IMG/VR virus record: IMGVR_UViG_3300035698_001871
Location: 1-24,101 of that record
Source of the DNA: a virus
Length of the DNA stretch: 24,101 nt
Direction: 5' to 3' (one strand)
Below the pieces are notes generated by a model. It was not told where the DNA came from. It saw only the letters and a program-made list of their open reading frames with translations, and did not search any database. Position numbers and translations under genes: made by a program. Numbering within the stretch: the first letter of the stretch is position 1; each line of letters opens with the position of its first letter. This document shows positions 3,861-23,740 of this stretch, piece by piece.

Positions 3861-3885
3861 AGTCCGTTTATTGATTGAACGATCT
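3861..3885 (-). promoter_or_regulatory. 25-bp inverted repeat, site 1
   Basis: In the minus-strand sense, arm AGATCGTTCAAT, centre, then the complement of AGTCCGTTTATT. It fills the gap before the 77-residue gene and its last base is part of the Ig-like gene's stop codon. Confidence 0.75.
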
Positions 3886-4457
3886 TACCATGCCCCAATT
3901 ACAGCAACCGGGGCCGTTGAATCAATCTGTGCAGGAGCACCGTCTACTGAACCATGAGCCACATCCGTATCAATCACGATTGCTTTATTCGCTGCTAAGT
4001 TAGTTGTAGGGGTAAAATCTGCCACAGCGTTAGGTGTCGTTGCAAGGTCATTTACTGTGCCGGTTATCGAAGATACGGTAAGGTCAGCACTTGAATCCCC
4101 ATCTTGAACAGTATAAGTGGCTGTTGCCATAGCTTTAGCTGTGGCTGTCGCGGTGACCGCCTGCCCCGAATCCAGGTTGATGGTAATGTTTCCCGTTGAC
4201 GTAACAAGCTCAGAAAAATAGACCGTGATATTTATTTGATTGCTTGCAACATAAGTTCCGTTTGCCGTTGAGGAAGTAATATTAACTACAGTCGGGACAA
4301 CAGCTTCGTCTATGTCCGGGTGAGGGTAGGTGTAGGCGGAATAGCCACTCATGGCTTCGGGCTTTGCTTCTGATTGAAAGAAGTCTGTACCAGAGGTAAG
4401 AATGTCTGACATCACAAACGCTTCACCACATTGAGCTACGGTATTACAGGTTGACAT
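3885..4457 (-). CDS. Ig-like module protein, probably a C-terminal extension of the fibre
   Basis: 190 codons from the first ATG. Residues about 55-150 (PTVVNITSSTANGTYVASNQ through TYTVQDGDSSADLTVSSITG) match the bacterial Ig-like repeats found in secreted adhesins and on phage tails. The N-terminal part, ending SGYSAYTYPHPD, resembles the C-termini of secreted parallel beta-helix proteins. The ATG at 4457 has no Shine-Dalgarno, and the same frame stays open upstream for about 31 more codons to 4550, just past the stop of the fibre gene. So this is probably either joined to the fibre by a -1 frameshift, part of one gene broken by a missing base, or a recombined remnant. Confidence 0.6.
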   Translation of the reverse strand: MSTCNTVAQCGEAFVMSDILTSGTDFFQSEAKPEAMSGYSAYTYPHPDIDEAVVPTVVNITSSTANGTYVASNQINITVYFSELVTSTGNITINLDSGQAVTATATAKAMATATYTVQDGDSSADLTVSSITGTVNDLATTPNAVADFTPTTNLAANKAIVIDTDVAHGSVDGAPAQIDSTAPVAVIGAW

Positions 4458-4546
4458 ATTGCCAAGGCTAAAAGCTCTATAAGCACCGTTGTACTGATTG
4501 TTCCATATATAAAGCGGTTCAGACCCTCTTGCCTTGGGATCTACTC

Positions 4547-5434
4547 CTACCCCAATCTGGTCAGCGCAGGAGCCGTAGCGTCAGTCATAAGCCCTGTTAA
4601 AAGGGAACAATCAGAACTATCCCAAAACATCCAACCGTATTCTGTTCCAGCGGTCCCACCACCAAAAGCCGTGAAGTACATATCAGAGATTTCGCCGTCT
4701 ACTGTAGCCGTGGACATATTAGCCTTGATGCTTCCGGCATCTTCTTCCGCAGTAGTACCACCGTCAGAATCCCTTAAAAGCACTTCAGCCGTTGCGCCTC
4801 GGAAGGCAAGGTTAATGCTACTCACCCAAGTTGGGTCAGCATCACCATTAGCCTGAAGTATAGAGTTAGCTGTACCAGCCCCAAGCCAGGAAGGGGCACC
4901 AACTCCATTACCCATTAGTAGCGTACCCTCTGCACCTGCAGCAAGCCAAGCATAGGTGTCATCAGCTGTACCATAAAGAATACCACCATTAGTCTCAGTA
5001 CGTCCAGCTATTGAAGCTAAAGCTGCATGATAAGCTTGGACATCAGTCCCAATAATGAGGCCTATGTTTGTTCTAATAGTAGCATCATCGGCACTTCCTA
5101 ACAGAGTAATTATATCAGCTGAGGGAGTAATACCTGCATATGTATCAAGGTCATTATCCCAAGCTTGGATATTTGTACCAATGACAATACCTATATTTAT
5201 CATAATATCTGCATCATCTGTACTACCAAGCAAAGTAATTACATCAGCAGAAGGTGTGATGCCAGCGTAGGTGTCTAAGTTTACATTATATTCTTGGACA
5301 TCTACACCTACTTCAAGCCCTAAAGCAGCAGAAGAAGTTCCATATATAGGCCCTCCATGCTGGCGAGCTTCAGCAGATGTAATACTGAACAAGACAAAAG
5401 TCAAGACCGTTAAATATTTGAACAATCTATTCAT
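4547..5434 (-). CDS. Tail fibre-like protein with signal peptide and tandem repeats
   Basis: 295 residues from ATG 5434 (GAGG 7 bases upstream; a GTG at 5446 is less likely). Residues 1-24 form a classical Sec signal peptide: MNRLFKYL, a hydrophobic stretch, then SAEA before RQHGG. After that come two nearly identical repeats of about 38 residues (LDTYAGITPSAD, then ITLLGS, DDA and NIG) and part of a third. This fibre-shaft repeat is common in phages and metagenomic viruses. The C-terminal half is beta-rich and probably a knob. Codons 3-11 also spell a 25-bp operator-like repeat (5404-5428). The stop TAG directly follows a GGGG run, after which the -1 frame encodes an Ig-like module. Confidence 0.75.
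   Translation of the reverse strand: MNRLFKYLTVLTFVLFSITSAEARQHGGPIYGTSSAALGLEVGVDVQEYNVNLDTYAGITPSADVITLLGSTDDADIMINIGIVIGTNIQAWDNDLDTYAGITPSADIITLLGSADDATIRTNIGLIIGTDVQAYHAALASIAGRTETNGGILYGTADDTYAWLAAGAEGTLLMGNGVGAPSWLGAGTANSILQANGDADPTWVSSINLAFRGATAEVLLRDSDGGTTAEEDAGSIKANMSTATVDGEISDMYFTAFGGGTAGTEYGWMFWDSSDCSLLTGLMTDATAPALTRLG
5404..5428 (-). promoter_or_regulatory. 25-bp inverted repeat, site 2 (inside the fibre signal peptide)
   Basis: Minus-strand sense: AGATTGTTCAAA, centre, complement of AGACCGTTAAAT. It begins 6 bases after the ATG of the fibre gene and encodes NRLFKYLTVL. Confidence 0.65.
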
Positions 5435-5442
5435 GATACACC

Positions 5443-5739
5443 TCACTTGTAGAAAGTAACTATCAGTATAGCAGGATCGGTGATAGCTATTGCTCTGAAG
5501 TTTTTGATGGACTTTGGGTTCGCGAAGTAAATACTCTGGCCTAGGTAGACCAAGTGTCCATCATTAGCGTCTGGGTCGCCTCCTTCTATACGATATCTGA
5601 TGCTGCTATCTTCTACTGTAATATTGACAGCATTAGAGGCATCTCGATAGCCTCCACCCAAACGAGAAACAGCATCTATTGCTACTTCTATCTTCTCATA
5701 ATAGAATGGAGCCCTGTCAAGTTCTTGTGTATAGTTCAT
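5443..5739 (-). CDS. Small virion-type protein
   Basis: 98 residues, mixed alpha/beta. Residues about 17-65 (VEVAIDAVSRLGGG-like start, then RYRIEGGDPDAND, GHLVYLGQSIYF) fit a family of short phage proteins seen in structural operons, to my recollection without known function. GAAGGTGAC precedes the ATG. The gap upstream holds the inverted repeat 5755-5779. The following fibre ATG is 8 bases beyond its stop. The function is unknown. Confidence 0.65.
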   Translation of the reverse strand: MNYTQELDRAPFYYEKIEVAIDAVSRLGGGYRDASNAVNITVEDSSIRYRIEGGDPDANDGHLVYLGQSIYFANPKSIKNFRAIAITDPAILIVTFYK

Positions 5740-5754
5740 TATGTCACCTTCTGT

Positions 5755-5779
5755 AGTATGTTTAAATATTGAACGATCT
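5755..5779 (-). promoter_or_regulatory. 25-bp inverted repeat, site 3
   Basis: Minus-strand sense: AGATCGTTCAAT, centre, complement of AGTATGTTTAAA. It overlaps the stop of the 92-residue gene and lies 15 bases before the next ATG. Confidence 0.75.
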
Positions 5780-6057
5780 TATTGACCTAACCAGTTTTTA
5801 ATGTATTGAATAGCCATAACAAGAACTCCTCCACCAAGGCCTGTGGAGGCTGCTAAGGCTGTATCCTTTTTCTTTTTAGACTTAGACTTATCCTCAATGT
5901 CATCAAACTTAGTATTGCATAGAGCTACTTGGGTTACCTGTGTATCTATCATCTCATCTATTCTTGTATCTAAATGATCCAAGATGTCAAATGTAAGTTC
6001 TTTAGAAGTCTTAGGGTCAGCTCCAACATATGCCTCTTTACTCACTCCGTGGCTCAT
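5779..6057 (-). CDS. Small membrane protein, possible holin
   Basis: 92 residues. The N-terminal 60 are polar and probably coiled-coil (DILDHLDTRIDEMIDTQVTQ), followed by a lysine-rich segment (KSKSKKKK, about 57-64) and one C-terminal transmembrane helix (about 66-90, ALAASTGLGGGVLVMAIQYI). This soluble-helix, basic-linker, tail-anchor layout resembles XhlA-type holin accessory proteins and some phage holins. Its start overlaps the terL stop as ATGA. A holin role would complete the lysis set with the endolysin at 10502, but the two are separated by terL and the tailspike, so this is tentative. Confidence 0.6.
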   Translation of the reverse strand: MSHGVSKEAYVGADPKTSKELTFDILDHLDTRIDEMIDTQVTQVALCNTKFDDIEDKSKSKKKKDTALAASTGLGGGVLVMAIQYIKNWLGQ

Positions 6058-7595
6058 GCTACCCTCCAGTTTTCAATAGGTGCCTCATAGTCAAGTTCAG
6101 CATACTCAGATTCAATATCGTCTGGATTTTCAGACGGGCTAAAGTATCTCTCACCTAATTCAAGCATCTCGATTATGTATGCGAAGCAGTCCATTAAGTC
6201 CCAAAGCTTTGATCTGGGAAACATAAGGAGTTGTTGTTCTAGTTTATTAACTGTTGCACATGCAGCATTGTGGTAGATGTAACCTCCTCTATAATAAGGT
6301 ACTAATTCCTTAACGCGGAGTTCTTTCTTCATTCCACCTCTGGCTTTAAGCCAAATTAGTTCAAAGAATGATCCAGTGCGAAACATCTCGTTTTTAATAG
6401 GTTGTTTAATAAACTCGTTAAGGGAAGTTTCCTCAATACCTAATACTTTTGCATCTAACATTCTAGCCATGCCGAACATAGCAGAGTAGATTTCATCTGG
6501 GTACATCTTCTCTGATATAGCATCTCGGACATAGAGTTTAGCTCTTGTAAGATCAATACCTACTCCGACTATTGCGGATTCAGCACTGTGGATTTTTACT
6601 GTCTTTGCAGGATCGAGTAGGACTACAGTTTCTATGTTCTTGTCCTGCTGGATTTCGCTGTCGAAAGTGGTCAAGTCATTCTCTCCACAGCGTCTGTCAG
6701 GTGGAAGGTTGTAGTAGTGAAAGTATTCTTGACGAAAAGCTGCGTCTTTGGATGAGATTGGAAGGTTACGCAGCTCCCTGAAAAACACATCTGACTGCCC
6801 AGCTTCAACATGCTCTTTCCATTCCTTCTCAATGCTCTCGTTAGACATAAAGTTTGGAGCTGTTGATTGAAAGTTGTCATCACAAGCTTCTAATCGCACA
6901 GAGTCCCATTCTGGTGAGTCTAGTAATTTCTGAAGTGTTGAGTCTTCATGTTTTAAGGTGTCGATGTAGACTATTTTGTAATTCTGGGCTTTTTTTCCTA
7001 TTCGTGGTACAGCTTTGATAACATCTGCGTAAAGCCAAGTGTACCAAGACTTACGAATCTCATCATTCATGACTTTTACTGGGTCTTCAAGATCGTCTAT
7101 TACTATTAATCCTGGGCGGTCATTCTTAAATAGCACCCCACGAACTTGCTGCCCTGCTCCACGGGGCCAGACTAAAGTATTATAAGCAACCCAAGCCTTT
7201 TTGCTAAAGACTTCCTCAAATTCCTTAATATTAACATCTCGCTGTCTGAAGTCTCCGAAGAAGGCTTTGATTGTTCTATTGGAGACTAGCTCACGACGTA
7301 GGTTTTCAGTCTGTAATGAAGCAGCATCATGGCTTTTGTTGATGTAACAGATGAAATTTACTAATCTGAATAGAATATAGCGAGCTTTTAATGCTAAGGC
7401 TACTATAGAAGTCTTTCCCCAACCACGAGGGGCTGCTATTGCTACCTTTTGTGAAGGCCCATCTATGAGATCAAAGATCTTACCATGAACCTCAGGAGCA
7501 AATTCCAGCTCGAAACGCTCTGGGAAAAACGTCTTAGCAACCATCTCAGTCGAGATGCTGCATTGGTATAAGATTTCTTCTATCTCTGAGTCCAC
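6054..7595 (-). CDS. terL: Terminase large subunit (packaging ATPase-nuclease)
   Basis: 513 residues, the usual length for TerL. It translocates phage DNA into the prohead with its ATPase domain and cuts concatemers with its RNase H-like nuclease domain. I see a Walker A at residues 55-63 (APRGWGKTS), an adenine-side segment FICYINKSHDAA, a Walker B at 163-170 (LIVIDDLE), a coupling-motif candidate at about 205-215 (KIVYIDTLKHED), and a nuclease Asp in VVLLDPAKT followed by AIVGVGIDL. The start is a GTG at 7595 with a weak, distant AAAGGA; an internal ATG at codon 18 is possible. The next gene starts in an ATGA overlap. Confidence 0.93.
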   Translation of the reverse strand: MDSEIEEILYQCSISTEMVAKTFFPERFELEFAPEVHGKIFDLIDGPSQKVAIAAPRGWGKTSIVALALKARYILFRLVNFICYINKSHDAASLQTENLRRELVSNRTIKAFFGDFRQRDVNIKEFEEVFSKKAWVAYNTLVWPRGAGQQVRGVLFKNDRPGLIVIDDLEDPVKVMNDEIRKSWYTWLYADVIKAVPRIGKKAQNYKIVYIDTLKHEDSTLQKLLDSPEWDSVRLEACDDNFQSTAPNFMSNESIEKEWKEHVEAGQSDVFFRELRNLPISSKDAAFRQEYFHYYNLPPDRRCGENDLTTFDSEIQQDKNIETVVLLDPAKTVKIHSAESAIVGVGIDLTRAKLYVRDAISEKMYPDEIYSAMFGMARMLDAKVLGIEETSLNEFIKQPIKNEMFRTGSFFELIWLKARGGMKKELRVKELVPYYRGGYIYHNAACATVNKLEQQLLMFPRSKLWDLMDCFAYIIEMLELGERYFSPSENPDDIESEYAELDYEAPIENWRVA

Positions 7596-7615
7596 TTTAG
7601 TGTTTGGTAATCCTT

Positions 7616-9985
7616 TTAGTTAAAGACTAAATAGTTATAAGTCTCAGTACCAGCAGCAGCTGTATTATCAGCTGTTCTAACTGTGAATGAAACTCCAGCA
7701 TTCTTTGATAAGATAAAAAGGCTCTTACTTGTATTTTCAAGAGCTCCTGCATTGACATTTGCAGGAGTTAAAACAACTATTGAGCTTGCTGTTATTGATG
7801 TATTTGCTACTACTTTAGAAGCTGCTGCTGCAAGTGTAAAAGTTCCAGAGTTTCCATTAGTTGATAATACATTTATATACCTTAAAAATGTTGGGTTTTC
7901 TGTAGTATTTGCCATTCGCATTACTAAGCCGCCTTCTGGCCCACGAAGATTAACCCTGTCACTAGCATCCATGCCTAACACATTCATTGCTACCCCTGTT
8001 GAGTCATACCATCTAAGAACTGTATTATTAGCATATGACGACCCAGTAGAATGATAATTGTAAGAGCCATCTGATCCACCTGATCCATGAGAAAGAATCA
8101 GTGTGGTTGCTGAAGAATTAGAAAGATAATTAACCCCTCTTGATGTGTCCTTTGGCTCTGTAGGAAAGTTTGTTATGTATAGAAATCGATTGAAAGTGGC
8201 CAGAGCTTCAATATCCACACCAGGCTCAGAAGTAGAGGAGTAATATCCACCTATAAATGTATTATCATCTCCTTCGTCTATATCTATTACAATTGTTGCA
8301 TCAGATACAAATCTAGGCTGCAGAAACATATTTAGCCGAGGAACCTCAACCCCGTTAGCTTCCATGTGAATACATTTTGTAGCTGCTCCCCCAGCACTTT
8401 CAAACCATGGTGTGATAAAGGTATTATTATGCCCTCCATTCATGTATAGGATTATACCAGAAGGAACTGAAGTTTCAAGTCCTGAGATGGTATTACCTTT
8501 AGGACGTAAGTCATTAGTGACATCTGATATAAATCCCATAGCATAGGTAGTTGTAGTGTGTATCCTTACATTATCTAATACACAAGCATTAGTGCTATTA
8601 GATCTTAGCGGAACCGCATTATAGTAAGTGCCAAGTTCAACACCTTTATCAGCTATGTTAACCTCAAGATGCCCAGCCTGTAATTCGATACAGCCAAGAA
8701 ATCTAAAAGCGGTTCCACCAACTGTATCAACCTTAATATTCTCAAGAATTCCATTACATCGTCTAAGGATAAGTCCATCACCAGTGGCTACTCCACCATT
8801 TAGTTTGAAGTCTCTAAAGGTAATATCAGTCCAGCCATTCTGGGCACCAGCACTGGTAACTTCTATAATATGAGCAGCGTTAGTAACTTGGTTAAATCCA
8901 GTTTGGTATCCCTGCCCTTCAATATTAATAGTGTCAAAAGATGCAGCTATAGTAATCTGCACCTCATCATCTATATCATAGGATCCATTTATTTGGAGCT
9001 TTCCTTTATTAATCATATCAGCAACTGCATAATTAGCGTAGATTGCATTATTAGTTGAAGTCTCAGCTATTGAAACACCATACCACTCAATCTCAACAGG
9101 TTGTGCAGTTCCCCAAACAACTTCTGACGTTGCATTGGTAAAGATGTAGATTGGGTAAATACCAGCCTCTACATGTCCATTATTAGTTACAACACACCCA
9201 GCTTCAATAGTCACAACATTTCCTCTGCCTTCCCAGAAGACTGAGGTATTTGCATTAATGGTTAAGTTACTTGCTACAGTCTCAGGTTCGCTGATTAATA
9301 GGCTTACTGAATCAGTTCCAATGTAAGTGGTTACTGCAACAAGGCTGTTAAACCAAGAAGAATGAAGTACTGTACCATTAGAGAAGTCTATATCACCAGC
9401 TCCAGCAAATATCTGGTAATTTCCAGCTTCTATATTATTTATATTTGATATAGTGTCAGCAACAGCTATGGTGATAATATGAGGGGATTCCCACTTGAGA
9501 ATGACATCATCTCCGACTGCCATGTCTGCAGTGGTAGTTTCAGCTTCTGAGATTACCATAGTTAAGGTATCATCAGAGGTTACATCTAAGGCTTCGTCAA
9601 GACAGGAAAACCATGAGGAACGGACTATTGAGCCTGCTGCGAAGTCTATATCACCTGTGCCTACAAATATTTGGTAGTCTTTTGCTTCTATGTCGTAAGT
9701 GTTGATGGTAAGCTGACCTGTGTTGTTTATAGCTCCATCATTGATAAATTTGAGTTTGATGTTTACTGGGATTGTTAAGGCAGTGGTTGCTTCGACTTGG
9801 GCGATGTAGAGGGTTTGTTCAATAGCGCCTATGGCAGTGACTGCAGCATCTATAGTGGCATAAGATCGAGTATCAGACCAGATGCCAGAGGTCTTGGTCA
9901 TAATGATGTCTGTGCAGTAGGTAGTAGCTGCTATGTTTAGGAAGAATAAGAAGGCTAGGCCTAGGCCTTTAAGTATGTCTTTCAT
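7616..9985 (-). CDS. Tailspike-like parallel beta-helix protein with signal peptide
   Basis: 789 residues. An N-terminal Sec-like signal (about 1-24: MKDILKGLGLAFLFFLNIAA followed by TTYC) is unusual for a virion protein. Residues about 95-330 contain three degenerate repeats of roughly 85 residues, built on YQIF-x-G-x-GDIDF and SSWF-x-x-L and ending ISEAET or ISEPET. From about 340 to 640 a typical right-handed beta-helix follows (IEGQGYQTGF, ITFRDFKLNGGVATGDGLIL, NTFIGGYYSS), as in pectate-lyase-fold phage depolymerases. The last 100 residues may form a trimerisation or knob domain. The inverted repeat 9995-10019 sits 9 bases upstream. Host-glycan binding or cleavage is the likely role; no catalytic residues can be assigned. 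Confidence 0.8.
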   Translation of the reverse strand: MKDILKGLGLAFLFFLNIAATTYCTDIIMTKTSGIWSDTRSYATIDAAVTAIGAIEQTLYIAQVEATTALTIPVNIKLKFINDGAINNTGQLTINTYDIEAKDYQIFVGTGDIDFAAGSIVRSSWFSCLDEALDVTSDDTLTMVISEAETTTADMAVGDDVILKWESPHIITIAVADTISNINNIEAGNYQIFAGAGDIDFSNGTVLHSSWFNSLVAVTTYIGTDSVSLLISEPETVASNLTINANTSVFWEGRGNVVTIEAGCVVTNNGHVEAGIYPIYIFTNATSEVVWGTAQPVEIEWYGVSIAETSTNNAIYANYAVADMINKGKLQINGSYDIDDEVQITIAASFDTINIEGQGYQTGFNQVTNAAHIIEVTSAGAQNGWTDITFRDFKLNGGVATGDGLILRRCNGILENIKVDTVGGTAFRFLGCIELQAGHLEVNIADKGVELGTYYNAVPLRSNSTNACVLDNVRIHTTTTYAMGFISDVTNDLRPKGNTISGLETSVPSGIILYMNGGHNNTFITPWFESAGGAATKCIHMEANGVEVPRLNMFLQPRFVSDATIVIDIDEGDDNTFIGGYYSSTSEPGVDIEALATFNRFLYITNFPTEPKDTSRGVNYLSNSSATTLILSHGSGGSDGSYNYHSTGSSYANNTVLRWYDSTGVAMNVLGMDASDRVNLRGPEGGLVMRMANTTENPTFLRYINVLSTNGNSGTFTLAAAASKVVANTSITASSIVVLTPANVNAGALENTSKSLFILSKNAGVSFTVRTADNTAAAGTETYNYLVFN

Positions 9986-9994
9986 GATGTCTCC

Positions 9995-10019
9995 AGATGG
10001 TTTATATATTGAACGATCT
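9995..10019 (-). promoter_or_regulatory. 25-bp inverted repeat, site 4
   Basis: Minus-strand sense: AGATCGTTCAAT, centre, complement of AGATGGTTTATA. It lies between the PLA2-like gene and the tailspike, 9 bases before the tailspike ATG. Confidence 0.75.
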
Positions 10020-10025
10020 TAGTAA

Positions 10026-10505: not shown

Positions 10506-10816
10506 CTCTTCTCCCCAAACGAGTAATGATTACCGTCTCCGCCTTTGAATCTCCCTCCCCATGACCCACCTATTGATTCCCAGAATTCTCCTAAAGATAA
10601 GTGGTCTGAGGTTTTTCTTAGGTAAATTCCATCTTTGAACAAGTTAAGGTCTTGAGCTAATCTCTTATAATGAAAGGATCCTTTCCTATGCCCAGTCTTA
10701 GCATATGCATCTCCTAAGGTAATCTCATAACCTTTTACATACGCAAAGAGGATAAGTAAGACAAGCATCTTAGCAAACTCACTCTGCCTCTGTCTCAGTG
10801 TTAGTTTCAGGCTCAA
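10502..10816 (-). CDS. M15-family (VanY-like) peptidase endolysin
   Basis: 104 residues, the size of small phage M15 endolysins. The family binds one Zn2+ and cuts peptide bonds in peptidoglycan stem peptides. Visible ligands are H49 and D56 (SFHYKRLAQDLNLF) and H97 (GDGNHYS), with D94 as probable catalytic acid; the segment FWESIGGSWGGRF (78-90) is typical of the family. The start is a TTG at 10816 with GGAAGG 9 bases upstream, inside the end of the preceding gene; starting at the internal ATG (codon 17) would delete the conserved first helix. No signal peptide, so it probably needs a holin. Confidence 0.88.
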   Translation of the reverse strand: MSLKLTLRQRQSEFAKMLVLLILFAYVKGYEITLGDAYAKTGHRKGSFHYKRLAQDLNLFKDGIYLRKTSDHLSLGEFWESIGGSWGGRFKGGDGNHYSFGEKR

Positions 10817-11351
10817 CGTTGATTATCCTTCCACTCTTAAGTCCTGCAGCTATTCCACGATCTTTAAACCCTTGAAGTTCCTCAGGGCTTAACTGCATGT
10901 GAGCTGAGAGAGTCTGGGTTTTAATAGGAGCGCGATGACCACTTAGTTCTAACATGACTGTGTTAGCTACTTTAACCTTATCCATTATAGTTAGTTCTAT
11001 TTCATCATCAAAGGCTTCTTGATAAATATTTAGTGCCTTGTTAGTTATAACTCTAATTTTTTCTGTGACTTTTTTCGTCTCATCGTCTCGTTCCAGGCGA
11101 ATTTCAGAAAGTTTTTTCTGGCCAAGTTCTGAGTTTAATGTGTTAGAAACAGTCTGAGGATGAATATGGAGGATCTCAGCGATTTCAGTACCTTTAAAGC
11201 CCCGCGCTGCGAGATTAACAATCTCATGATTCCGCTGCCAGAGTGCCTTGATGTCAGGAGTTTTTCGTTCCTCTACTCTCCTTTCATCTGGCTCTCTAAA
11301 CTCAAACCCGTAAAGTCCGTTTCTTGTTTCTATACCTTCTAACCCAGACAT
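10779..11351 (-). CDS. Terminase small subunit-like HTH protein
   Basis: 190 residues. A helix-turn-helix at about 43-75 (GFKGTEIAEILHIHPQTVSN) is followed by long charged helices (about 80-150) and an acidic tail (ETNTETEAE). This order, DNA-binding domain then helical oligomerisation region, fits terminase small subunits that recognise the packaging site. AAAGGAG precedes the ATG, and a strong minus-strand promoter lies 35 bases upstream, making it the first gene of the leftward operon. TerL is three genes downstream. As the only obvious HTH protein here, a transcriptional-regulator role, even of the 25-bp repeats, cannot be excluded. Confidence 0.72.
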   Translation of the reverse strand: MSGLEGIETRNGLYGFEFREPDERRVEERKTPDIKALWQRNHEIVNLAARGFKGTEIAEILHIHPQTVSNTLNSELGQKKLSEIRLERDDETKKVTEKIRVITNKALNIYQEAFDDEIELTIMDKVKVANTVMLELSGHRAPIKTQTLSAHMQLSPEELQGFKDRGIAAGLKSGRIINVEPETNTETEAE

Positions 11352-11509: not shown

Positions 11510-11534
11510 AGACCATTTAATTATTAAACGATCT
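11510..11534. promoter_or_regulatory. 25-bp inverted repeat, site 5 (symmetrical, control region)
   Basis: AGACCATTTAAT, centre T, complement of AGATCGTTTAAT; only 2 arm mismatches. It lies between the divergent promoters, about 95 and 157 bases from their -35 boxes. Confidence 0.8.
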
Positions 11535-12211: not shown

Positions 12212-12246
12212 AAAGGTCATTAGTTAATTCTAATGGCCTTTTTTTT
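12212..12246 (+). terminator. Rho-independent terminator of cassette 1
   Basis: A 12-bp stem (AAAGGTCATTAG with CTAATGGCCTTT, one G-U pair), a 6-base loop and an eight-T run. It ends the transcript of gene A. Confidence 0.88.
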
Positions 12247-12285
12247 ATACCTATTCATCTATGGTGTAACTAGGGGATATGACAT

Positions 12286-12310
12286 AGATCGTTTAAACAT
12301 TAAATGATCT
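12286..12310. promoter_or_regulatory. 25-bp inverted repeat, site 6 (symmetrical, promoter-linked)
   Basis: AGATCGTTTAAA, centre C, complement of AGATCATTTAAT; 2 arm mismatches. It ends 32 bases before the -35 of the promoter at 12343. Confidence 0.8.
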
Positions 12311-12584: not shown

Positions 12585-13241
12585 ATGGGAATAAGTGCAG
12601 AAGTTAAACAGGAGAGTAGTGTACCAGTGCAGAGTAGAGTTAGTCTGATTAGTTTAGCAGAGCTGTGTTATTACTGGGATGTCACAGGGTATGAGATTAA
12701 GAGCATGAGTCAGCTGTTGAGTTGGAGTGCAGAGTTACTATGTGATGTGTTAAGAGCGAATGGGAAGCTGCCGGTTAGTATTACTTCAGTAGCAGAGGCT
12801 AAGAGATTTATGGAGGAGAAGGGGTTGTTCCAGCCGAGTATGAAAAAGAGGAGTTTTAAGAAGATAGGTAATGCTATCACGTTTGAGAATTTGAGGAATG
12901 AGGGGATAGACCCTAAACAGTATACTCCTGTAGCTCATAAGATATTGCATAATAAGAAGAGTGTGGAGGTAGCGCCTGAAACTGATCAGAGAAGGATTAT
13001 GGGTGTTATCTTTGAGGAGGAGGCAGAGGAAAGAAGGAAGCTAGAAAAAGAACGGATAGCGATGAAAGAAAAGATTAAAGATCATGGAGAGGAGATGGGG
13101 TTTGTTCCTGGGCCTATTAAAGAGGATGAAGAGCCTGTGGTGATTAAAGAGGGTGGGAATACTGATGAAGAGATAGATGCGTTACAAAGGCAGCAAGAGG
13201 CTAAGGATAAGAGACAGCTGGAGGAGATTGCTGAGATGTGA
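12585..13241 (+). CDS. Unknown early protein with charged C-terminus
   Basis: 218 residues. An N-terminal region of about 90 residues (LAELCYYWDVTGYEIKSMSQ, then LSWSAELLCDVLRANG) looks like a small helical domain that could bind DNA. The middle is basic (KKRSFKKIG), and residues about 140-218 are highly charged and probably coiled-coil (EEEAEERRKLEKERIAMKEK). TAAGGAGGAAT gives a strong start. It follows tandem TAATACR repeats and a promoter, the position where phages often keep a replication initiator or early regulator. No family is recognised, so that is only a contextual suggestion. Confidence 0.8.
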   Translation: MGISAEVKQESSVPVQSRVSLISLAELCYYWDVTGYEIKSMSQLLSWSAELLCDVLRANGKLPVSITSVAEAKRFMEEKGLFQPSMKKRSFKKIGNAITFENLRNEGIDPKQYTPVAHKILHNKKSVEVAPETDQRRIMGVIFEEEAEERRKLEKERIAMKEKIKDHGEEMGFVPGPIKEDEEPVVIKEGGNTDEEIDALQRQQEAKDKRQLEEIAEM

Positions 13242-13256: not shown

Positions 13257-13281
13257 AGTTCGTTCGGGAATTGAACGGTCT
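13257..13281. promoter_or_regulatory. 25-bp inverted repeat, site 7 (promoter-linked)
   Basis: AGTTCGTTCGGG, centre A, complement of AGACCGTTCAAT; both arms carry GTTC. It ends 51 bases before the -35 at 13333. Confidence 0.75.
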
Positions 13282-14417: not shown

Positions 14418-14738
14418 ATGAAAGCTAAAAAAGAACATACTCAAAGAGTAACCATCCTAGGTCAGCCCATCTCGCTGATCAGACCATCAGTTCCAAATCA
14501 ACCTCGTGTGTATAAAGACGAACGACCTACTACCAAGTATCCTCTTAAAACCTTACGATCTAAAACAATCAAAGCACACTCCGGCAAAGTCCTTGCTGCT
14601 GCTATTAAGTTATATAGTGGTGGGATAAGGGCTATGAAGGGAACTCATGCAGATGTATTAATAAACTTCGGAATCCATCCTGCTAATGTAGTAAGTACAG
14701 GATGGATGCTTGAGAATAATAACTATGTGTGGAGGTAA
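14418..14738 (+). CDS. Basic unknown protein
   Basis: 106 residues with a basic N-terminal half (RVTILGQPISLIRPSVPNQP, then KTLRSKTIKAHSGK) and a C-terminal half (KLYSGGIRAMKGTHADVLIN) ending in a small Trp-containing domain. AAGGAGAT precedes the ATG. Its stop codon overlaps the first base of a 25-bp inverted repeat (14738-14762). DNA binding is possible from charge; no family recognised. Confidence 0.7.
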   Translation: MKAKKEHTQRVTILGQPISLIRPSVPNQPRVYKDERPTTKYPLKTLRSKTIKAHSGKVLAAAIKLYSGGIRAMKGTHADVLINFGIHPANVVSTGWMLENNNYVWR

Positions 14739-14762
14739 GTCCGTTCAATTCATAAACGATCT
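14738..14762 (+). promoter_or_regulatory. 25-bp inverted repeat, site 8
   Basis: AGTCCGTTCAAT, centre T, complement of AGATCGTTTATG. Its first base is the last base of the previous stop codon; the next ATG is 13 bases away. Confidence 0.75.
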
Positions 14763-16618: not shown

Positions 16619-16652
16619 GTGTCCCTGGTACTGGCCACCAGGGGCACTTTTT
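16619..16652 (+). terminator. Rho-independent terminator of cassette 2
   Basis: Eleven-bp stem (GTGTCCCTGGT with ACCAGGGGCAC, one G-U), a 7-base loop and TTTTT. It is GC-rich and strong. Genes after it must be transcribed by readthrough or by a promoter I could not see. Confidence 0.88.
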
Positions 16653-16689
16653 AATACCCTTCTAAATGCACCATGGAGTAAGATGAGTA

Positions 16690-16714
16690 AGACCGTTCAA
16701 CAATAAAACAATCT
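16690..16714 (+). promoter_or_regulatory. 25-bp inverted repeat, site 9
   Basis: AGACCGTTCAAC, centre A, complement of AGATTGTTTTAT. It lies after the cassette 2 terminator and 16 bases before the next ATG. Confidence 0.72.
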
Positions 16715-18052: not shown

Positions 18053-18053
18053 A

Positions 18054-18439: not shown

Positions 18440-18773
18440 CCAACAAGCTAGCCCAACACCCGTACCTCAATTCTTCATCGCTGGAGTTAAATTCCACCAA
18501 ATGGGGACTATCATCATGGATATGGTGGTAGGTGATACTCTGGCAATGGTTCCTGAACCCACTAACAAATATGATCCTAACGCAGTCCAGCTTGTCTACG
18601 CAAGGCATGATAAGGAAGTTATGTGTGGCTTTGTTCCAATGAAGTTTAGTGCTACTATTACTGCGTTGATCGAAGTTGGAGTCAAGCTTGAGTGTAAGAT
18701 AGTAGAACTCAATAAGACTGAGCAACCATGGAAGCAATGCTTGGTGGAGATTAAGGAGGTTATTGATGACTGA
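18420..18773 (+). CDS. HIRAN-domain protein
   Basis: 117 residues. Residues about 18-110 fit the HIRAN domain (known from HLTF/Rad5, where it binds 3' ends of single-stranded DNA): FFIAGVKFHQ, then GDTLAMVPEPTNKYDPNAVQ, then a GFVP segment. The EPTNKYDPNAV core is the diagnostic part. Here it stands alone without a helicase. AAGGAGG precedes the ATG. It probably recognises DNA ends or damaged forks in phage replication or repair, near ligase and nuclease; that role is inference. Confidence 0.83.
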   Translation: MTNQVDNQQASPTPVPQFFIAGVKFHQMGTIIMDMVVGDTLAMVPEPTNKYDPNAVQLVYARHDKEVMCGFVPMKFSATITALIEVGVKLECKIVELNKTEQPWKQCLVEIKEVIDD

Positions 18774-18993
18774 ACCACTAAAACCTTGTGCCAAATGTGG
18801 CAAGGATATGATTGACTCAGACGGAACAAATACTTCTGGAGTCCATATGATACTTCATTCTGATCCAGACGACTTTGGATCAACTGATGACTATAAAAAG
18901 AAACAGATGGGAAAATATTCCCTAGACAAAGAATACAGCTTCTGCTGGGAATGTTGTCTTGATGCTTTATTCCAAGGAGGTAAAAATGCCTAA
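18766..18993 (+). CDS. Small Cys-pair (zinc) protein
   Basis: 75 residues from ATG 18766 (AAGGAGG 6 bases upstream; TTG 18763 is less likely). C-x2-C near the start (PCAKCGKDM) and C-x2-CC near the end (FCWECCLDALF) could form a zinc ribbon or FYVE-like pair. It overlaps the HIRAN gene by 8 bases and the next gene by 8 bases. Function unknown. Confidence 0.72.
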   Translation: MTEPLKPCAKCGKDMIDSDGTNTSGVHMILHSDPDDFGSTDDYKKKQMGKYSLDKEYSFCWECCLDALFQGGKNA

Positions 18994-19375
18994 GAAATAC
19001 TACTGCTCTAACTGTGGCACACGCCTTGTTGTAACTCGCAAAGCCTTGCCTAAATACGCTACTATCATCGAACTTGTCGAATACCACGAGTGTCCTGATG
19101 AACCTGTGGAGTTCGACCTGGAACCAATCCCAGTCCCACGGCCTCCAGTCGAAGACAAAGACAAGTTCGTTCATCAATTAAACGGTCTGGGTGTGAAAGC
19201 TGACCTCCCTGAGAACCGTGTGCTACTCGAACCTCTCGGAGATAAGCGAGACAAGGAACATATCAAAAAGGAAAAATCCTCTGCTCCTCCAACTGTCTTA
19301 GATTACATTAATAGAGTTCCCATATCATCTCCTGCAAACGAACCTATCGACCTCGACAGTCCGGAAGGAGACTAA
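18986..19375 (+). CDS. Zinc-ribbon protein with long linker
   Basis: 129 residues from ATG 18986, 5 bases after AAGGAGG; an in-frame ATG at 18959 lies within the previous gene without a site. C-x2-C at the start (YYCSNCGTRL) and a later Cys (HECPD) may bind zinc. The rest is a Pro- and Asp-rich, probably disordered chain. Codons for KFVHQLNGL in that linker also spell a full 25-bp inverted repeat (19164-19188). Confidence 0.72.
   Translation: MPKKYYCSNCGTRLVVTRKALPKYATIIELVEYHECPDEPVEFDLEPIPVPRPPVEDKDKFVHQLNGLGVKADLPENRVLLEPLGDKRDKEHIKKEKSSAPPTVLDYINRVPISSPANEPIDLDSPEGD
19164..19188 (+). promoter_or_regulatory. 25-bp inverted repeat, site 10 (inside a coding region)
   Basis: AGTTCGTTCATC, centre A, complement of AGACCGTTTAAT. 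It lies within the zinc-ribbon gene 18986-19375 and encodes part of KFVHQLNGL in its Pro/Asp-rich linker. Confidence 0.68.
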
Positions 19376-19376
19376 A

Positions 19377-19670
19377 ATGTCTAAGGTATTCATAGTAAAC
19401 AAATCAGCCCATGACTTCTCACCTGCAGAAGCATTTGGTGAGATAGTCTTCCTCAGTGAAGGTCCCATGAATCGCTATAGCACTAACAACATGCACAGGT
19501 TATTCAGTTCACGAATGAAGGATTCTAAGGAGACAGATCATATAGTTCCTTGTTCCCTTAATGTAATGAACTCTATCGCATGTGCTTTTTTTGCTGTTAA
19601 GCATAGAAAACTTAATCTTTTACTATTCAAAGATGGAGAGTACCTTGAAAGGAATATGGTTTTTGATTAG
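19377..19670 (+). CDS. Phage protein of unknown function
   Basis: 97 residues. The pattern MSKVFIVNKSAHDFSPAEAF, with later FGEIVFLSEGPMNRYSTNNM and LNLLLFKDGEYLERN, matches a small phage protein that I recall from many tailed-phage genomes; it has no assigned role. The full length is present. GGAAGGAGAC precedes the ATG, 1 base after the previous stop. Confidence 0.78.
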   Translation: MSKVFIVNKSAHDFSPAEAFGEIVFLSEGPMNRYSTNNMHRLFSSRMKDSKETDHIVPCSLNVMNSIACAFFAVKHRKLNLLLFKDGEYLERNMVFD

Positions 19671-19866
19671 TTTGGTAGTCTTGATATTACTCTGGCACTG
19701 GTGGAGTCTGCCTTGCTATGTCACAAACGTAGGTATATGTAGGGTAGCTCCACTTGAGATTAAGACTGCTATGAGAAAGATGGGACCTTATTATGATTAT
19801 AGGATAAAGGAAGGTAAACTCTACGTTAACAGAGGAGACAACAAATGGATGAGATTAAGGTACTAA
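19633..19866 (+). CDS. Small membrane protein
   Basis: 77 residues from ATG 19633, overlapping the previous gene. One N-terminal transmembrane helix (about 8-24, IWFLISLVVLILLWHWW) and a 45-residue soluble domain (TAMRKMGPYYDYRIKEGKLY). The start is uncertain: TTG at 19663 has a better GAAAGGA but would cut the helix. It could be a holin, a spanin-like part or a superinfection-exclusion protein; nothing decides this. Confidence 0.6.
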   Translation: MESTLKGIWFLISLVVLILLWHWWSLPCYVTNVGICRVAPLEIKTAMRKMGPYYDYRIKEGKLYVNRGDNKWMRLRY

Positions 19867-20051
19867 CAAAAAGACCTAAGCACCTCGATGAGATCTGTGC
19901 TAACTGTGACAAACGTCTCGGCTCACATCATGGAGGACATTCTACCTGGCCTCACAATTACTGCCCTGATCCTGAAGAAAGAATGTACTGGGAATTAGGC
20001 CCAGGGACTGTATTTAAACCTACTGGGAAATTTAAGGAGAATACAAAATGA
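19845..20051 (+). CDS. Small Cys/His-rich protein
   Basis: 68 residues. C-x2-C (ICANCDKRLGSHHGGH), several His residues and a later CPDPEE suggest a zinc site at about 18-41. AGGAGA precedes the ATG, which lies 22 bases inside the previous gene. Small Cys/His proteins of this kind are common in phages; function unknown. Confidence 0.7.
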   Translation: MDEIKVLTKRPKHLDEICANCDKRLGSHHGGHSTWPHNYCPDPEERMYWELGPGTVFKPTGKFKENTK

Positions 20052-20218
20052 CTATTACAAAAAGAACTTTAGAAAGGTGGAGGAAGGAAGCGCTTGAGAC
20101 AGAACACAAAGCCTCAACTGATCAAGACTTTGGTTACCCATCAGAAGCTCTTGAACTATGCCAACGCATCCTTCGCATGACCGCAGAACTTCTCGATCAA
20201 CACTTGTTAAGAAAATGA
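20048..20218 (+). CDS. Small helical protein
   Basis: 56 residues, charged and helical (KRTLERWRKEALETEHKAS, later LELCQRILRMTAELLDQHLL). The start overlaps the preceding stop as ATGA, with AAGGAG upstream. No family recognised. Confidence 0.65.
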   Translation: MTITKRTLERWRKEALETEHKASTDQDFGYPSEALELCQRILRMTAELLDQHLLRK

Positions 20219-20233
20219 AAGGAGAATAAGATT

Positions 20234-20359
20234 ATGTCAAAAATAAGAATGAAATCATCTATACCTATTGATATAGGACATTCACGTATCCCAAATAGTA
20301 ATGAAGAGGCTGATGTAGTAGAAATGATACGAGAATTTTTTAAGTCTCATTCATACTGA
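20234..20359 (+). CDS. Small protein ending at a possibly read-through TGA
   Basis: 41 codons after AAAGGAG, ending FFKSHSY at TGA (20357-20359). The same frame then stays open for 22 more codons (VEQTEDYSLVVQRIEICEEE and PI) and ends at TGA 20426-20428, which overlaps the nuclease ATG as ATGA, the junction style used elsewhere here. The gap downstream is otherwise unusually long (65 bases). A mutated Trp codon, a sequencing error or readthrough could explain it. Other genes here end at TGA, so the phage does not generally recode it. Confidence 0.55.
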   Translation: MSKIRMKSSIPIDIGHSRIPNSNEEADVVEMIREFFKSHSY

Positions 20360-20424
20360 GTTGAGCAGACTGAAGACTACAGTTTAGTAGTCCAAAGAAT
20401 TGAAATTTGTGAGGAGGAACCAAT

Positions 20425-21426
20425 ATGACCTTCCCTCTAACACCAGTCCCTGCTTGGGACATTCGTGATTCATCCAAGCTAACCGACTTTGACTCGTGTG
20501 CTAGGCAATTCTTCTTCTCTCACATCTTAGGCTGGAGACCTGATTACCCTGCACATGACCTTTACTTTGGTGAGTGCTGGCATATAGCACGTGAGCATCA
20601 GATTGTCCACGGCTATGATGACATCCAGGGTGCGTACAATGCTTTCATCGATCACTATCGCAAGGAGTTCGCACCTGAGGACGATGCTATGAATAGTCCT
20701 AAGACTCCAACTGCTGTTCTCCAAGCACTAATGAAATTCGCAGAGGAGCGATCTCGTGACTTGATCGATAATGAGGTTGTCATCATAGACGGTCAAAAGA
20801 TGACTGAGATCGCTGGTACTGTGCCAGTTGACGAGAAGCGTGTGCTACACTATCGCATGGATACTATCATGAGACGCTTGGTGGACAATATGATCTTCTC
20901 CTGGGATCATAAGACTACGCATGAAAAATACCTCAACGGAAGACAATGGTCTGAGGCTTTCCACCTTGGTATCCAGAATGGTACCTACACCCACTGCCTT
21001 TACTGCATGTTTCCTATTGAGCAAGTTTTAGGCGTAGAGTTCTGCGGTGTAGGGTTTACCTACCTCAAGCGTGGCTCATCTGCGAGACCTGCAGGGTTTC
21101 ATTCTTCACTACGCCGTGTGCCTGCTTTTAAAACCCCAGACCAGATGAATGTCTGGCTATGGAATGTGATAGACTTACTCGACAAACTCGACCGTGAAAT
21201 GGATCGCTTGCATCATTGCAAGGAGGAAGACCCAGTCTTAATGGCCTTCCCTATGAGACCTAAGAGTTGCACCGACTACAGAGGCTGCCCGTTTCATGAC
21301 TTTTGCTTAAGCTGGCCTAATCCATTACAGAGAAGTTATGAACCTCCATTGGGTTTCAGGGTAGAATTCTGGGATCCTTCACTAAAGGAATCTAAAGTTA
21401 AAAAGGACTTATCATGGCCAAGTTAA
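20425..21426 (+). CDS. PD-(D/E)XK nuclease, Cas4/RecB-like
   Basis: 333 residues. Motifs of the RecB-type nuclease: D146 in RMDTIMRR, D161-x-K163 in FSWDHKTTH, and a downstream Gln/Tyr helix (IQNGTYTHCLY). One Cys near the N-terminus (C25, DSCARQFFF) and three near the C-terminus (C282, C288, C294 in CTDYRGCPFHDFC) match the iron-sulfur layout of Cas4 and AddB nucleases. It probably resects DNA ends for the Sak4-like ATPase downstream. There is no CRISPR context. GAGGAGG precedes the ATG. Confidence 0.88.
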   Translation: MTFPLTPVPAWDIRDSSKLTDFDSCARQFFFSHILGWRPDYPAHDLYFGECWHIAREHQIVHGYDDIQGAYNAFIDHYRKEFAPEDDAMNSPKTPTAVLQALMKFAEERSRDLIDNEVVIIDGQKMTEIAGTVPVDEKRVLHYRMDTIMRRLVDNMIFSWDHKTTHEKYLNGRQWSEAFHLGIQNGTYTHCLYCMFPIEQVLGVEFCGVGFTYLKRGSSARPAGFHSSLRRVPAFKTPDQMNVWLWNVIDLLDKLDREMDRLHHCKEEDPVLMAFPMRPKSCTDYRGCPFHDFCLSWPNPLQRSYEPPLGFRVEFWDPSLKESKVKKDLSWPS

Positions 21427-21581
21427 GAAAACTAATCTGCTGGTTGCTCGGGCATAGGTCTATATGCCTTGGACATTTTGCTGTAATGCTTGAGGAGAAT
21501 CCTTATAATCCAAGAAGCTATTACACAAACTGGAAATGTGAACGCTGTGGACATTACTTTTCAGAACAATGGGATAACTAA
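21414..21581 (+). CDS. Small zinc-ribbon protein, DUF1660-like
   Basis: 55 residues. LICWLLGHRS near the start and WKCERCGHYFSEQW near the end resemble DUF1660-type prophage proteins (Cys, then GH, later C-x2-C-G). Its ATG lies inside the end of the nuclease gene (13 bases). Likely zinc-binding; role unknown. Confidence 0.68.
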   Translation: MAKLRKLICWLLGHRSICLGHFAVMLEENPYNPRSYYTNWKCERCGHYFSEQWDN

Positions 21582-21582
21582 T

Positions 21583-21741
21583 ATGACCAGTGTAATAAAA
21601 ATAGGAAACACTCAAGCAGAAGTAAGAATAACTCACTCCAAACGAAGCCTTTTATACTTTACGAAGAACTTCTTTAATATAGAAGTTCCTCATTATATGG
21701 AAGAACTAATAAGGAAAATAGACAATGATCAACATAACTAA
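21583..21741 (+). CDS. Small unknown protein
   Basis: 52 residues from ATG 21583; the frame is open upstream to 21490, but that part overlaps the previous gene without a start signal. The ribosome site is weak, so coupling to the preceding gene is likely. Basic, beta then helix (SVIKIGNTQAEVRITHSKRS, then HYMEELIRKI). No family recognised. Confidence 0.5.
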   Translation: MTSVIKIGNTQAEVRITHSKRSLLYFTKNFFNIEVPHYMEELIRKIDNDQHN

Positions 21742-21895
21742 AGAAGATCTCCGTGATGCTATTATTGATCTAAGGGAACTTACCAACATCCTCGAACGTT
21801 ACTGGAATAAACTTAGTCCAGAGGAAGTTGAGGAAGCTACCGAGATTAGACACTTACCTTGTGATGGATGTGAGGAGGAAGAAGATGCTACATAA
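21725..21895 (+). CDS. Small acidic protein
   Basis: 56 residues, helical and acidic (ITKEDLRDAIIDLRELTNIL, later CDGCEEEEDA with a Cys pair). AAGGA lies 9-10 bases before the ATG; it overlaps the gene before by 17 bases and the gene after by 11. Its end encodes GAGGAGG, the ribosome site of the following gene. Confidence 0.65.
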   Translation: MINITKEDLRDAIIDLRELTNILERYWNKLSPEEVEEATEIRHLPCDGCEEEEDAT

Positions 21896-22142
21896 CTTAA
21901 CACAAAAAACTATATCAAACAAAGTAAGCTTAGAGATATCAGACGACCACAAACTTCTAGGAGTATTCAAAGAAGACATAAAGATTGCTGAGTTTGATAT
22001 AGCCCTAGTCTGGAATATGATAAGAGATAACCTCGCTACAATAGATGTAGGATTTATTGCACGCCCTGAACTATTCAGAAGAAAAGGTGAAGCAGCTGCT
22101 GCTATTCTATATACTAACAAGATGTATTTTGAAAAGGAGTAA
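21885..22142 (+). CDS. Small unknown protein
   Basis: 85 residues from ATG 21885 (GAGGAGG about 6 bases upstream; the in-frame ATG at 21828 lies inside the previous gene). Mixed alpha/beta (VSLEISDDHKLLGVFKEDIK, then AEFDIALVWNMIRDNLATID). It sits 2 bases before the ATPase gene. No family recognised. Confidence 0.68.
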   Translation: MLHNLTQKTISNKVSLEISDDHKLLGVFKEDIKIAEFDIALVWNMIRDNLATIDVGFIARPELFRRKGEAAAAILYTNKMYFEKE

Positions 22143-22144
22143 CC

Positions 22145-22984
22145 ATGCCCTACGACTACCGTAATGAGCTAGCAGATGTAGTCAAGTACTATAACCAAGA
22201 CCCACTCCAGAAACGTTTCTCTGCTTTAGTAACAGGCGAGACCAACTCTGGGAAAACTTACCTACTCCGCACAGCTCGCTTCCCTATTCACATAGACTCC
22301 TTCGACCCAGGTGGAACTAAATGCCTCCTCGACTTAATAAGAAGTAAGGAAAACCCTAACGGCCAAATAGTCGCAGACACACAATGGGAGGCTGATGATC
22401 CACTTTCACCTACTACCTTTGCCAACTGGATGAAGGCTATTGATAGACGCATACAGATAGGATACTTCAAAGAGTTTGGTACTTACTGTATTGATAGTGC
22501 TACTACCTTTGGTGACGCTGTTATGAATTATCAGTTGGCTAAGGTAGAAAGAGCAGGTGAGTCTCCCAGAATGAGACAAGACTACATGCCTCAAAAGACG
22601 TTCATGTCTAACTATATCAAAAAACTAATGCGTATCCCTTGTGACTTTATTCTGACTGGTCACCTGCGTGAAATAAAGAAACTAATAAGGATAGACAAAA
22701 GCACTGGGATATCCCAGGAAGAAATCAAGTACCGTTTCCTAACAACTGGCCAAGCTGTAGTAACTATCCCTTTACTTTTTGATGAGATCTATGTGATAAT
22801 AGGTAAGGATGGACAGGGTAGGACCCCAGAACGTGAAATGCTTATTGATTCCCTGGGAACCTACATAGCTCGATCCAGGCTAAAAGCCAAAGGGCTTCTT
22901 GACGCAACTGAGAAGCCTGATATTAAAGGACTACTAAAAAAGATAGGGCTTACTTGGGAGGATAAGCCTAAGTTGGAAGCATAA
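22145..22984 (+). CDS. Sak4-like RecA-fold ATPase (AAA_24)
   Basis: 279 residues. Walker A at 31-38 (GETNSGKT), a FPIHIDSFDPGG strand after it, a Walker B-like YCIDSATTFGD near 118, and a later ILTGHLREIKK segment. This order fits phage Sak4-type recombinases, single-domain RecA-like ATPases that promote single-strand annealing and usually travel with an SSB and an exonuclease, both present here. AAAGGAG precedes the ATG. The exact subfamily is inferred; a general phage AAA ATPase is the alternative. Confidence 0.82.
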   Translation: MPYDYRNELADVVKYYNQDPLQKRFSALVTGETNSGKTYLLRTARFPIHIDSFDPGGTKCLLDLIRSKENPNGQIVADTQWEADDPLSPTTFANWMKAIDRRIQIGYFKEFGTYCIDSATTFGDAVMNYQLAKVERAGESPRMRQDYMPQKTFMSNYIKKLMRIPCDFILTGHLREIKKLIRIDKSTGISQEEIKYRFLTTGQAVVTIPLLFDEIYVIIGKDGQGRTPEREMLIDSLGTYIARSRLKAKGLLDATEKPDIKGLLKKIGLTWEDKPKLEA

Positions 22985-22986
22985 TA

Positions 22987-23011
22987 AGATCGTTTAATCA
23001 ATAAACAATAT
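22987..23011 (+). promoter_or_regulatory. 25-bp inverted repeat, site 11
   Basis: AGATCGTTTAAT, centre C, complement of ATATTGTTTATT. It starts 2 bases after the ATPase stop and ends 20 bases before the GTG of the next gene. Confidence 0.73.
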
Positions 23012-23031
23012 ATTGAAAGGAGGTGAGACAA

Positions 23032-23217
23032 GTGAAGTATAAAATCCTCTGTATATTCACACAGACTGGAAGAACCTACACATTCAAGAATGTGACTATT
23101 GTCTGTGATAATGAGTCAGTTCTCCAGTTTGAATATGCAGCCATGTCAGACGGTCTGGCTAAGACAGCTACCTTCCCAAAGGCTACACTTTGTGGGTGGT
23201 CTGTGACTCCAGAGTAA
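23032..23217 (+). CDS. Small beta-rich protein
   Basis: 61 residues from GTG 23032, 8 bases after AAAGGAGG; the GTG at 23023 lies inside the ribosome site. Beta-rich (KILCIFTQTGRTYTFKNVTI). The 25-bp repeat 22987-23011 lies 20 bases upstream. It lies between the ATPase and the SSB-like gene; function unknown. Confidence 0.65.
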   Translation: MKYKILCIFTQTGRTYTFKNVTIVCDNESVLQFEYAAMSDGLAKTATFPKATLCGWSVTPE

Positions 23218-23252
23218 TACTAACCCTTAACTCAAAAAAGGAGAAAAACCTC

Positions 23253-23672
23253 ATGGCTTTAACTGACTACAGTGATTTAGAAAAAGAAATTCAAGACGCA
23301 CCAGAACCTACAATCCTGAATCGAGGAGCTGAGGTAAAAGCTCGCATCATTAGCATAAATGAAGGTATTAGTGACAAGAATGATGCCCAGTGGTACATGC
23401 CTACCTTTGATGTGCCTGCTCAGCCCCTGGTAATCGAGTTCAATGATTTCTTCTGGGATCTCAAAGAGAAGGAAAAGATTGGTGACAAACAGTACCAACG
23501 TCTCCTGACCAAATTCAGGAAATTCGCTACAGCCTTCAGCCTTAATTATTCCAAGCCTTTCGACTGGATCGATGACCTTATCGGCCTGGAAGGATGGGTA
23601 ATCCTGGGCGTGAAGAAGGATGAGGAATACGGGGATAAGAATAATATATCCAAGTATGTTATTGGGAAGTAA
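23253..23672 (+). CDS. SSB-like OB-fold protein
   Basis: 139 residues from ATG 23253 (AAAAAGGAG upstream; in-frame start 23190 lies in the previous gene). The pattern (GAEVKARIISINEGISDKND early; LIGLEGWVILGVKKDEEYGD and NNISKYV late) is typical of DUF669-type phage single-strand-binding proteins: strand-rich OB fold with a conserved GW-V-x-LG-V-K-x-D-EEYGD-KN end. Position after the Sak4-like ATPase supports this. No long acidic tail is present. Confidence 0.72.
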   Translation: MALTDYSDLEKEIQDAPEPTILNRGAEVKARIISINEGISDKNDAQWYMPTFDVPAQPLVIEFNDFFWDLKEKEKIGDKQYQRLLTKFRKFATAFSLNYSKPFDWIDDLIGLEGWVILGVKKDEEYGDKNNISKYVIGK

Positions 23673-23680
23673 AGTTTAAC

Positions 23681-23710
23681 GTGCTGGTAGGCTTGTCATG
23701 CTGCCAGCAC
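23681..23710 (+). other. Stable hairpin without T-run
   Basis: GTGCTGGTAG, ten-base loop, CTGCCAGCAC: 10 bp with one G-U pair, 8 bases after the stop of the SSB-like gene and 5 bases before the repeat 23716-23740. No T-run follows, so a classical terminator is unlikely; mRNA-end protection or attenuation is possible. Confidence 0.6.
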
Positions 23711-23715
23711 AACCC

Positions 23716-23740
23716 AGTTCGTTCAATCAATAAACAATCT
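23716..23740 (+). promoter_or_regulatory. 25-bp inverted repeat, site 12
   Basis: AGTTCGTTCAAT, centre C, complement of AGATTGTTTATT. It follows the hairpin 23681-23710 and lies 16 bases before the last ATG. Confidence 0.75.

Follow-up and report, generated by a model that had tools for sequence, protein, structure and literature searches.

A genome-wide array of 25-bp near-palindromes in a group of little-known tailed phages may punctuate transcription

The stretch analysed here, referred to as the window, is the whole 24,101-base record IMGVR_UViG_3300035698_001871 of an uncultivated tailed phage. It carries an array of 12 copies of a 25-bp near-palindrome, and its relatives carry 5–24 copies each. 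The group comprises little-known bacterial viruses with about 20 copies of the palindrome per genome. No description of this 25-bp element was found in the literature. The preferred reading, to which somewhat less than an even chance is given, is that a dimeric protein would bind the copies as symmetric sites and would block or punctuate transcription. It draws on where the copies stand between genes, on how regularly they are spaced and on the way their two arms change together from one genome to another.

The minus strand of the window encodes the portal protein and the terminase, and the plus strand a DNA ligase, an exonuclease and a Sak4-type protein. A divergent control region occupies about 11.4–13.4 kb. 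A scan with a symmetric position weight matrix found exactly 12 copies with scores of 25.8–32.6; everything else scored 7 or less, and shuffled sequences gave 0–2 hits at 10 or above. The copies are the following:

3861–3885, minus strand: unequal arms, GTTC upstream, in the gap between minus-strand genes.
5404–5428, minus strand: unequal arms, within the gene ending at 4547, in its first codons (putative signal peptide).
5755–5779, minus strand: unequal arms, preceding gene 5443–5739.
9995–10019, minus strand: unequal arms, 9 bp ahead of gene 7616–9985.
11510–11534, no strand assigned: in the divergent control region, arms equal at position 9.
12286–12310, plus strand: in the control region, arms equal at position 9, centre about 44 bp from a TTGACA/TATGAT-type promoter (about 12342).
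13257–13281, plus strand: GTTC in both arms, behind gene 12585–13241 and upstream of a promoter at about 13332.
14738–14762, plus strand: unequal arms, overlapping the stop of gene 14418–14738.
16690–16714, plus strand: unequal arms, 16 bp ahead of gene 16731.
19164–19188, plus strand: unequal arms, inside a plus-strand gene (about 18987–19375).
22987–23011, plus strand: GTTT in both arms, directly behind the Sak4 gene 22145–22984.
23716–23740, plus strand: unequal arms, 16 bp ahead of gene 23757.

The array is not peculiar to the window. A phage collection searched with the window gave no close match, and a search with the portal protein led to 69 loci, most of which have the 25-bp element. 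Related contigs were collected in two rounds, 22 being fetched first and eight more later, the latter located by their site pattern; the later set also includes part of a 46-kb contig from a metagenome-assembled genome. Sites were present in 23/23 contigs of the first set and in 9/9 of the later set, with 0–1 in shuffles, and 292 sites were counted in the first set of 20 contigs (window included). No excess of palindromes was seen in two further phages, Vibrio phage VS-ABTNL-3 and Caulobacter phage Kuura. Gene strands were taken from a simple caller of open reading frames (ORFs), strand-ambiguous sites (confidence below 0.5) being left out. Sites in close relatives are not fully independent, which the genome bootstrap used below corrects in part, and several of the tests were picked while the first set was under view.

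The copies are placed preferentially between genes: 229 of 334 site centres are intergenic, while intergenic sequence makes up 5.9% of the DNA. In the typical layout, the first bases of the site are shared with the stop codon of the preceding gene, and the start of the following gene is 9–20 bp downstream. At the convergence of the early and late operons, the primase gene and the giant structural gene have a site at their ends or between them in 21/21 genomes, and it often makes up the whole gap. An automatic count placed 14 of these within 60 bp; of the remaining seven, assigned by inspection, three are within 75 bp with the two genes overlapping, and four lie inside or on the border of a longer stretch that separates the two stops. 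Another recurrent junction, behind one small structural-arm gene, is marked in 19/20. The in-gene site of the window at 19164 also has a counterpart at the matching place in most relatives.

The many sites found 9–20 bp ahead of a start codon, together with the direction bias described below, could suggest phage-specific promoters or activator sites that drive the downstream genes and take their polarity from the unequal arms. This is improbable, however, since 21/21 genomes have a site at convergent gene ends: a promoter placed there would be implausible, as its transcripts would be antisense. In addition, the palindrome has no conserved flanking element, and the arm that the bias makes the stronger one is not the same at pyrimidine as at purine positions. 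A T7-type RNA polymerase (PF00940) was detected in 0/21, in a search whose positive controls also gave no match. T7-type phage promoters are asymmetric sites; the element resembles them as a repeated phage-specific sequence ahead of genes, but it is palindromic and occurs at convergent gene ends as well.

The spacing of the sites is more even than that of random gene junctions (combined z = -8.1), and copies are also found within very long genes. Both features would suit an array that anchors a protein which shapes, segregates or packages the genome, with the sites lying at junctions because coding sequence is costly to occupy. A family-conserved fusion of a ParB N-terminal domain with an N6/N4 DNA methylase (L108:13549-14895) could be quoted in its favour. 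Nevertheless, the ParB-like protein is a methylase fusion, and the choice of junctions is not arbitrary, as the constant marking of the convergent junction and the recurrence of others indicate. This organising role is thus considered unlikely, although it keeps some weight.

The sequence of the sites also varies in an informative manner. The consensus differs from genome to genome, and the two arms do so jointly: the left-arm and the right-arm consensus match at 90% within a genome versus 75% between genomes, which fits a symmetric, co-evolving protein site. Three contigs that lack the common sequence have a version of their own, for instance AGATAATTAAAT-N-ATTTAATTATCT. Desulfofustis phage LS06-2018-MD01 (OP947158), whose portal protein is 43% identical, has nine copies of GCTATGTCCCAA-N-TTGGGACATAGC, also of 25 bp; one stands behind the gene for a Sak4-like ATPase and another just behind the primase gene, at the convergence of transcription units. 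A consensus shared within each genome is what gene conversion would produce too, and Sak4 is conserved; both could speak for recombination boundaries, short homologies at gene ends for Sak4 annealing that shuffle gene cassettes like the promoter–stem-loop cassettes of T4-type phages. Little credence is given to this possibility: the arms change together across genomes, a better fit to a symmetric protein site than to homology, and even spacing would be unexpected.

Regarding direction, an earlier note on this DNA had reported that all unequal copies in the window carry the GTTC arm upstream in relation to the local genes. The eight copies do lie where it placed them, each with one GTTC arm and one GTTT or GTTA arm, and the orientation was confirmed in 8/8; the four copies that it left uncounted (11510, 12286, 13257, 22987) have arms equal at that position. 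The chance of 1 in 128 attached to this agreement is correct for a test fixed beforehand, but position 9 was picked after seeing the data. When orientation was tabulated in 31 related contigs, GTTC was upstream in 52 sites and downstream in 33 (p = 0.05). With 33/85 sites against transcription, the kind of outcome that the note itself had named as a refutation, the strict rule breaks down, and 8/8 overstates a real tendency of about 61%.

What stands is a weaker and broader bias. Where the arms differ by a transition, the transcript has an A·C mismatch more often than a G·U wobble, with counts of 364:196 in both sets without the window (genome bootstrap 1.56–2.18; 26 genomes for, 4 against). 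The explanation by hairpins was formed on the first set (262:153, window included) and then tested on the later-fetched set, which gave 102:38 (p = 3e-8). Counted per site, 190 are oriented with transcription and 89 against. By position, the first set without the window gave 28:22 at position 9 and 89:41 at position 5; contrasts at positions 3 and 12 were also looked at, and that at position 3 failed to replicate. The odds are the same for pyrimidine pairs (C upstream, 275:149) and for purine pairs (A upstream, 89:47). These are opposite changes of arm strength, yet both remove a G·U pair from the transcript. The purine positions thereby rule out that the upstream arm is simply the stronger or more GC-rich one, and the proposal that the site is itself directional, and hence acts on moving polymerase, does not follow from its orientation. 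Action on moving polymerase is nonetheless the best model, on the separate grounds of convergent placement, gene-end position and even spacing.

The bias also depends on the position of the site with respect to genes, being strongest (2.21) with a start codon within 30 nt, intermediate (1.74) inside ORFs and weak (1.27) for the rest of the intergenic sites (Fisher p = 0.013 for the strongest versus the weak class). Since the leader is A-rich, a sense-strand selection or mutation bias unrelated to hairpins might be thought to cause it. Flanking, intergenic and third-codon composition, however, predict C..A/T..G odds of 0.72–1.03 versus the 1.86 observed; sense-strand composition as the cause is ruled out by the flanks, and the broader idea of a hairpin-independent strand bias is regarded as very improbable. 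The hairpins themselves differ between strands: those of the sense strand are weaker than the antisense ones (mean -3.3 vs -4.0 kcal/mol, p = 1e-5), a difference that was replicated in the later set and also holds in sequence context (p = 1e-7). Watson–Crick pairs between the arms number 2196, compared with 2272 (sd 14) after shuffling of halves inside each genome, a deficit replicated in the later set (970 vs 987, sd 7), and there is one perfect palindrome versus 9.4 in the half-shuffles. The best account of the direction would then be selection against an mRNA hairpin ahead of ribosome-binding sites, not polarity of the site.

The same data bear on the idea that the palindrome is an RNA element, its transcript folding into a hairpin that acts as a terminator or as a processing or stability signal. 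Every copy can indeed form a weak hairpin. Nevertheless, sense hairpins are the weaker ones, arm pairing is avoided and no T-run stands behind the sites, so this explanation is largely refuted and retains only a slight probability. The site does not qualify as an intrinsic terminator: its arms are AT-rich, its sense hairpin is weak, and a T-rich stretch follows it in the sense direction at only 7/411 sites.

According to the preferred model, one symmetric, presumably dimeric DNA-binding protein, probably a phage product, would bind the 25-bp sites, and the bound protein would act as a transcription roadblock or punctuation mark. Such a block would keep neighbouring transcription units apart in three settings: at the ends of genes, within the divergent control region and at the early/late convergence. 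Orientation would be a by-product: among the sequences that the protein tolerates, copies would retain those mismatches that are unpaired in the mRNA, avoiding a hairpin just ahead of ribosome-binding sites.

Three proteins were considered as candidate binders:

12585–13241, plus strand: ribbon-helix-helix-like protein of the control region, 218 aa, between the sites at 12286 and 13257.
10779–11351, minus strand: helix-turn-helix (HTH) protein, small-terminase-like, first gene of the leftward operon.
19377–19670, plus strand: family-conserved 97-aa protein, Pam3_gp32-like (Pfam), about 190 nt after the in-gene site.

The first is present in 17 contigs of the first set and in 7/8 later contigs. 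Its helices 21–33 and 41–58 are predicted at high confidence and, like the position of its gene in the control region, would suit a binder. The putative fold assignment rests only on the sequence pattern and the helix layout, and no support for the protein as binder came from Pfam, from a search of PDB sequences or from Foldseek. Repressors of the P22 Arc/Mnt type are small ribbon-helix-helix proteins that act on near-palindromic operators. The likeness is that a similar protein is encoded here beside two sites; the difference is that the ribbon-helix-helix family does not track the motif between genomes. In one relative the small-terminase-like HTH gene is split into two ORFs (L079:6416-6984), possibly through a frameshift in the record or in the phage. 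The 97-aa protein had the best motif co-divergence among early-region proteins in the larger analysis and the second best in the first. Its confidently predicted fold is Rossmann-like, with a weak resemblance to CARF/SAVED cyclic-nucleotide domains (best E = 0.04), including a viral ring nuclease, and the protein is possibly an anti-defence protein.

Several of these results weigh against the model of a protein-bound block. No binding protein for the sites was found among the tested candidates: the divergence of the ribbon-helix-helix-like protein tracks the motif poorly (r = 0.23), and two genomes (G005 and G019) share a motif yet have different subfamilies of it; the HTH protein shows no tracking (partial correlation -0.01); and the predicted fold makes the 97-aa protein unlikely as a DNA binder. 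The binder may even be a host protein. Moreover, the strong sigma-70-like promoters of the control region lie mostly 30–110 bp downstream of a site, not under it; in several relatives the promoter is about 47–52 bp downstream of the site centre. Finally, integrase and serine recombinase families were searched and none was found, and therefore there is no obvious need for a silencer of the lysogeny type. The portal protein occurs in only two contigs of the genome collection, of 45–46 kb, approximately the size of the whole phage. Because no integrase was found and the portal occurs only in phage-sized contigs, the lifestyle is probably not integrative, which a short pattern scan cannot prove.

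The closest parallel to the array is provided by the stoperators of cluster A mycobacteriophages, bound by the L5 gp71-type repressor. These comprise 20–30 dispersed copies in promoter regions and short intergenic spaces, with a genome-specific motif and an orientation correlated with transcription; each stoperator is a 13-bp asymmetric site bound by a monomer, and its reversal abolishes repression (PMC9283540, PMC6550527). Both arrays have numerous dispersed copies, most of them in short spaces between genes, and a consensus specific to each genome. In contrast, the sites described here are 25-bp near-palindromes with co-varying arms, their orientation bias is only about 65:35, a tendency and not a rule, accounted for by transcript pairing, and neither a cognate repressor (among the tested candidates) nor an integrase was found. 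In the best model, by analogy, the sites would work like stoperators but would not be members of that family, and membership is not claimed. Another parallel is the SPbeta repeated element (SPBRE) with its repressor MrpR, which has a 15-bp motif, sites at promoters and a binder with a tyrosine-recombinase fold (PMC10516654). One phage-encoded DNA-binding protein with a dispersed intergenic set of sites is the likeness (PMC10516654), here only proposed. The difference is that no tyrosine-recombinase-like repressor was found: PF00589 was detected in 0/21 contigs, with control genomes positive, although highly diverged members could be missed.

Some further observations concern the surroundings of the sites and the gene content of the group. 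Near-consensus sigma-70 promoters cluster in the control region of the window (11691, 12342 and 13332 on the plus strand, 11414 on the minus strand), mostly 40–170 bp downstream of a site centre. Intrinsic-terminator-like hairpins with T-runs occur at 12212–12247 and about 16619–16653, just upstream of the sites at 12286 and 16690, and therefore true terminators and 25-bp sites coexist. Among relatives, L108:14936-17455 encodes a family A DNA polymerase whose N-terminal domain is uracil-DNA-glycosylase-like. One relative has genes for a Radical SAM/B12-binding/glycosyltransferase protein and a methyltransferase–AAA protein in its late operon (L079:2760-4862 and 4859-5791), and HNH endonuclease-like genes are found in the early region of one relative (L107:18373-18915 and L108:2051-2518).

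A broader claim, put forward only tentatively, is that, in this lineage with no detectable integrases, a single dimeric protein bound to an even, genome-wide array of palindromes could replace intrinsic terminators as the main barrier between transcription units and be the only element that divides the early operon from the late one where they converge, while selection on the mRNA shapes the mismatches that are allowed. If this were true, dispersed protein-bound stop sites would not be peculiar to mycobacteriophage lysogeny, and they would also serve phages without signs of integration, on a different site architecture. As a general caution and a tool, transcribed palindromic operators can gain strand asymmetry from the avoidance of RNA pairing; therefore, orientation with transcription is, by itself, no evidence for a directional site.

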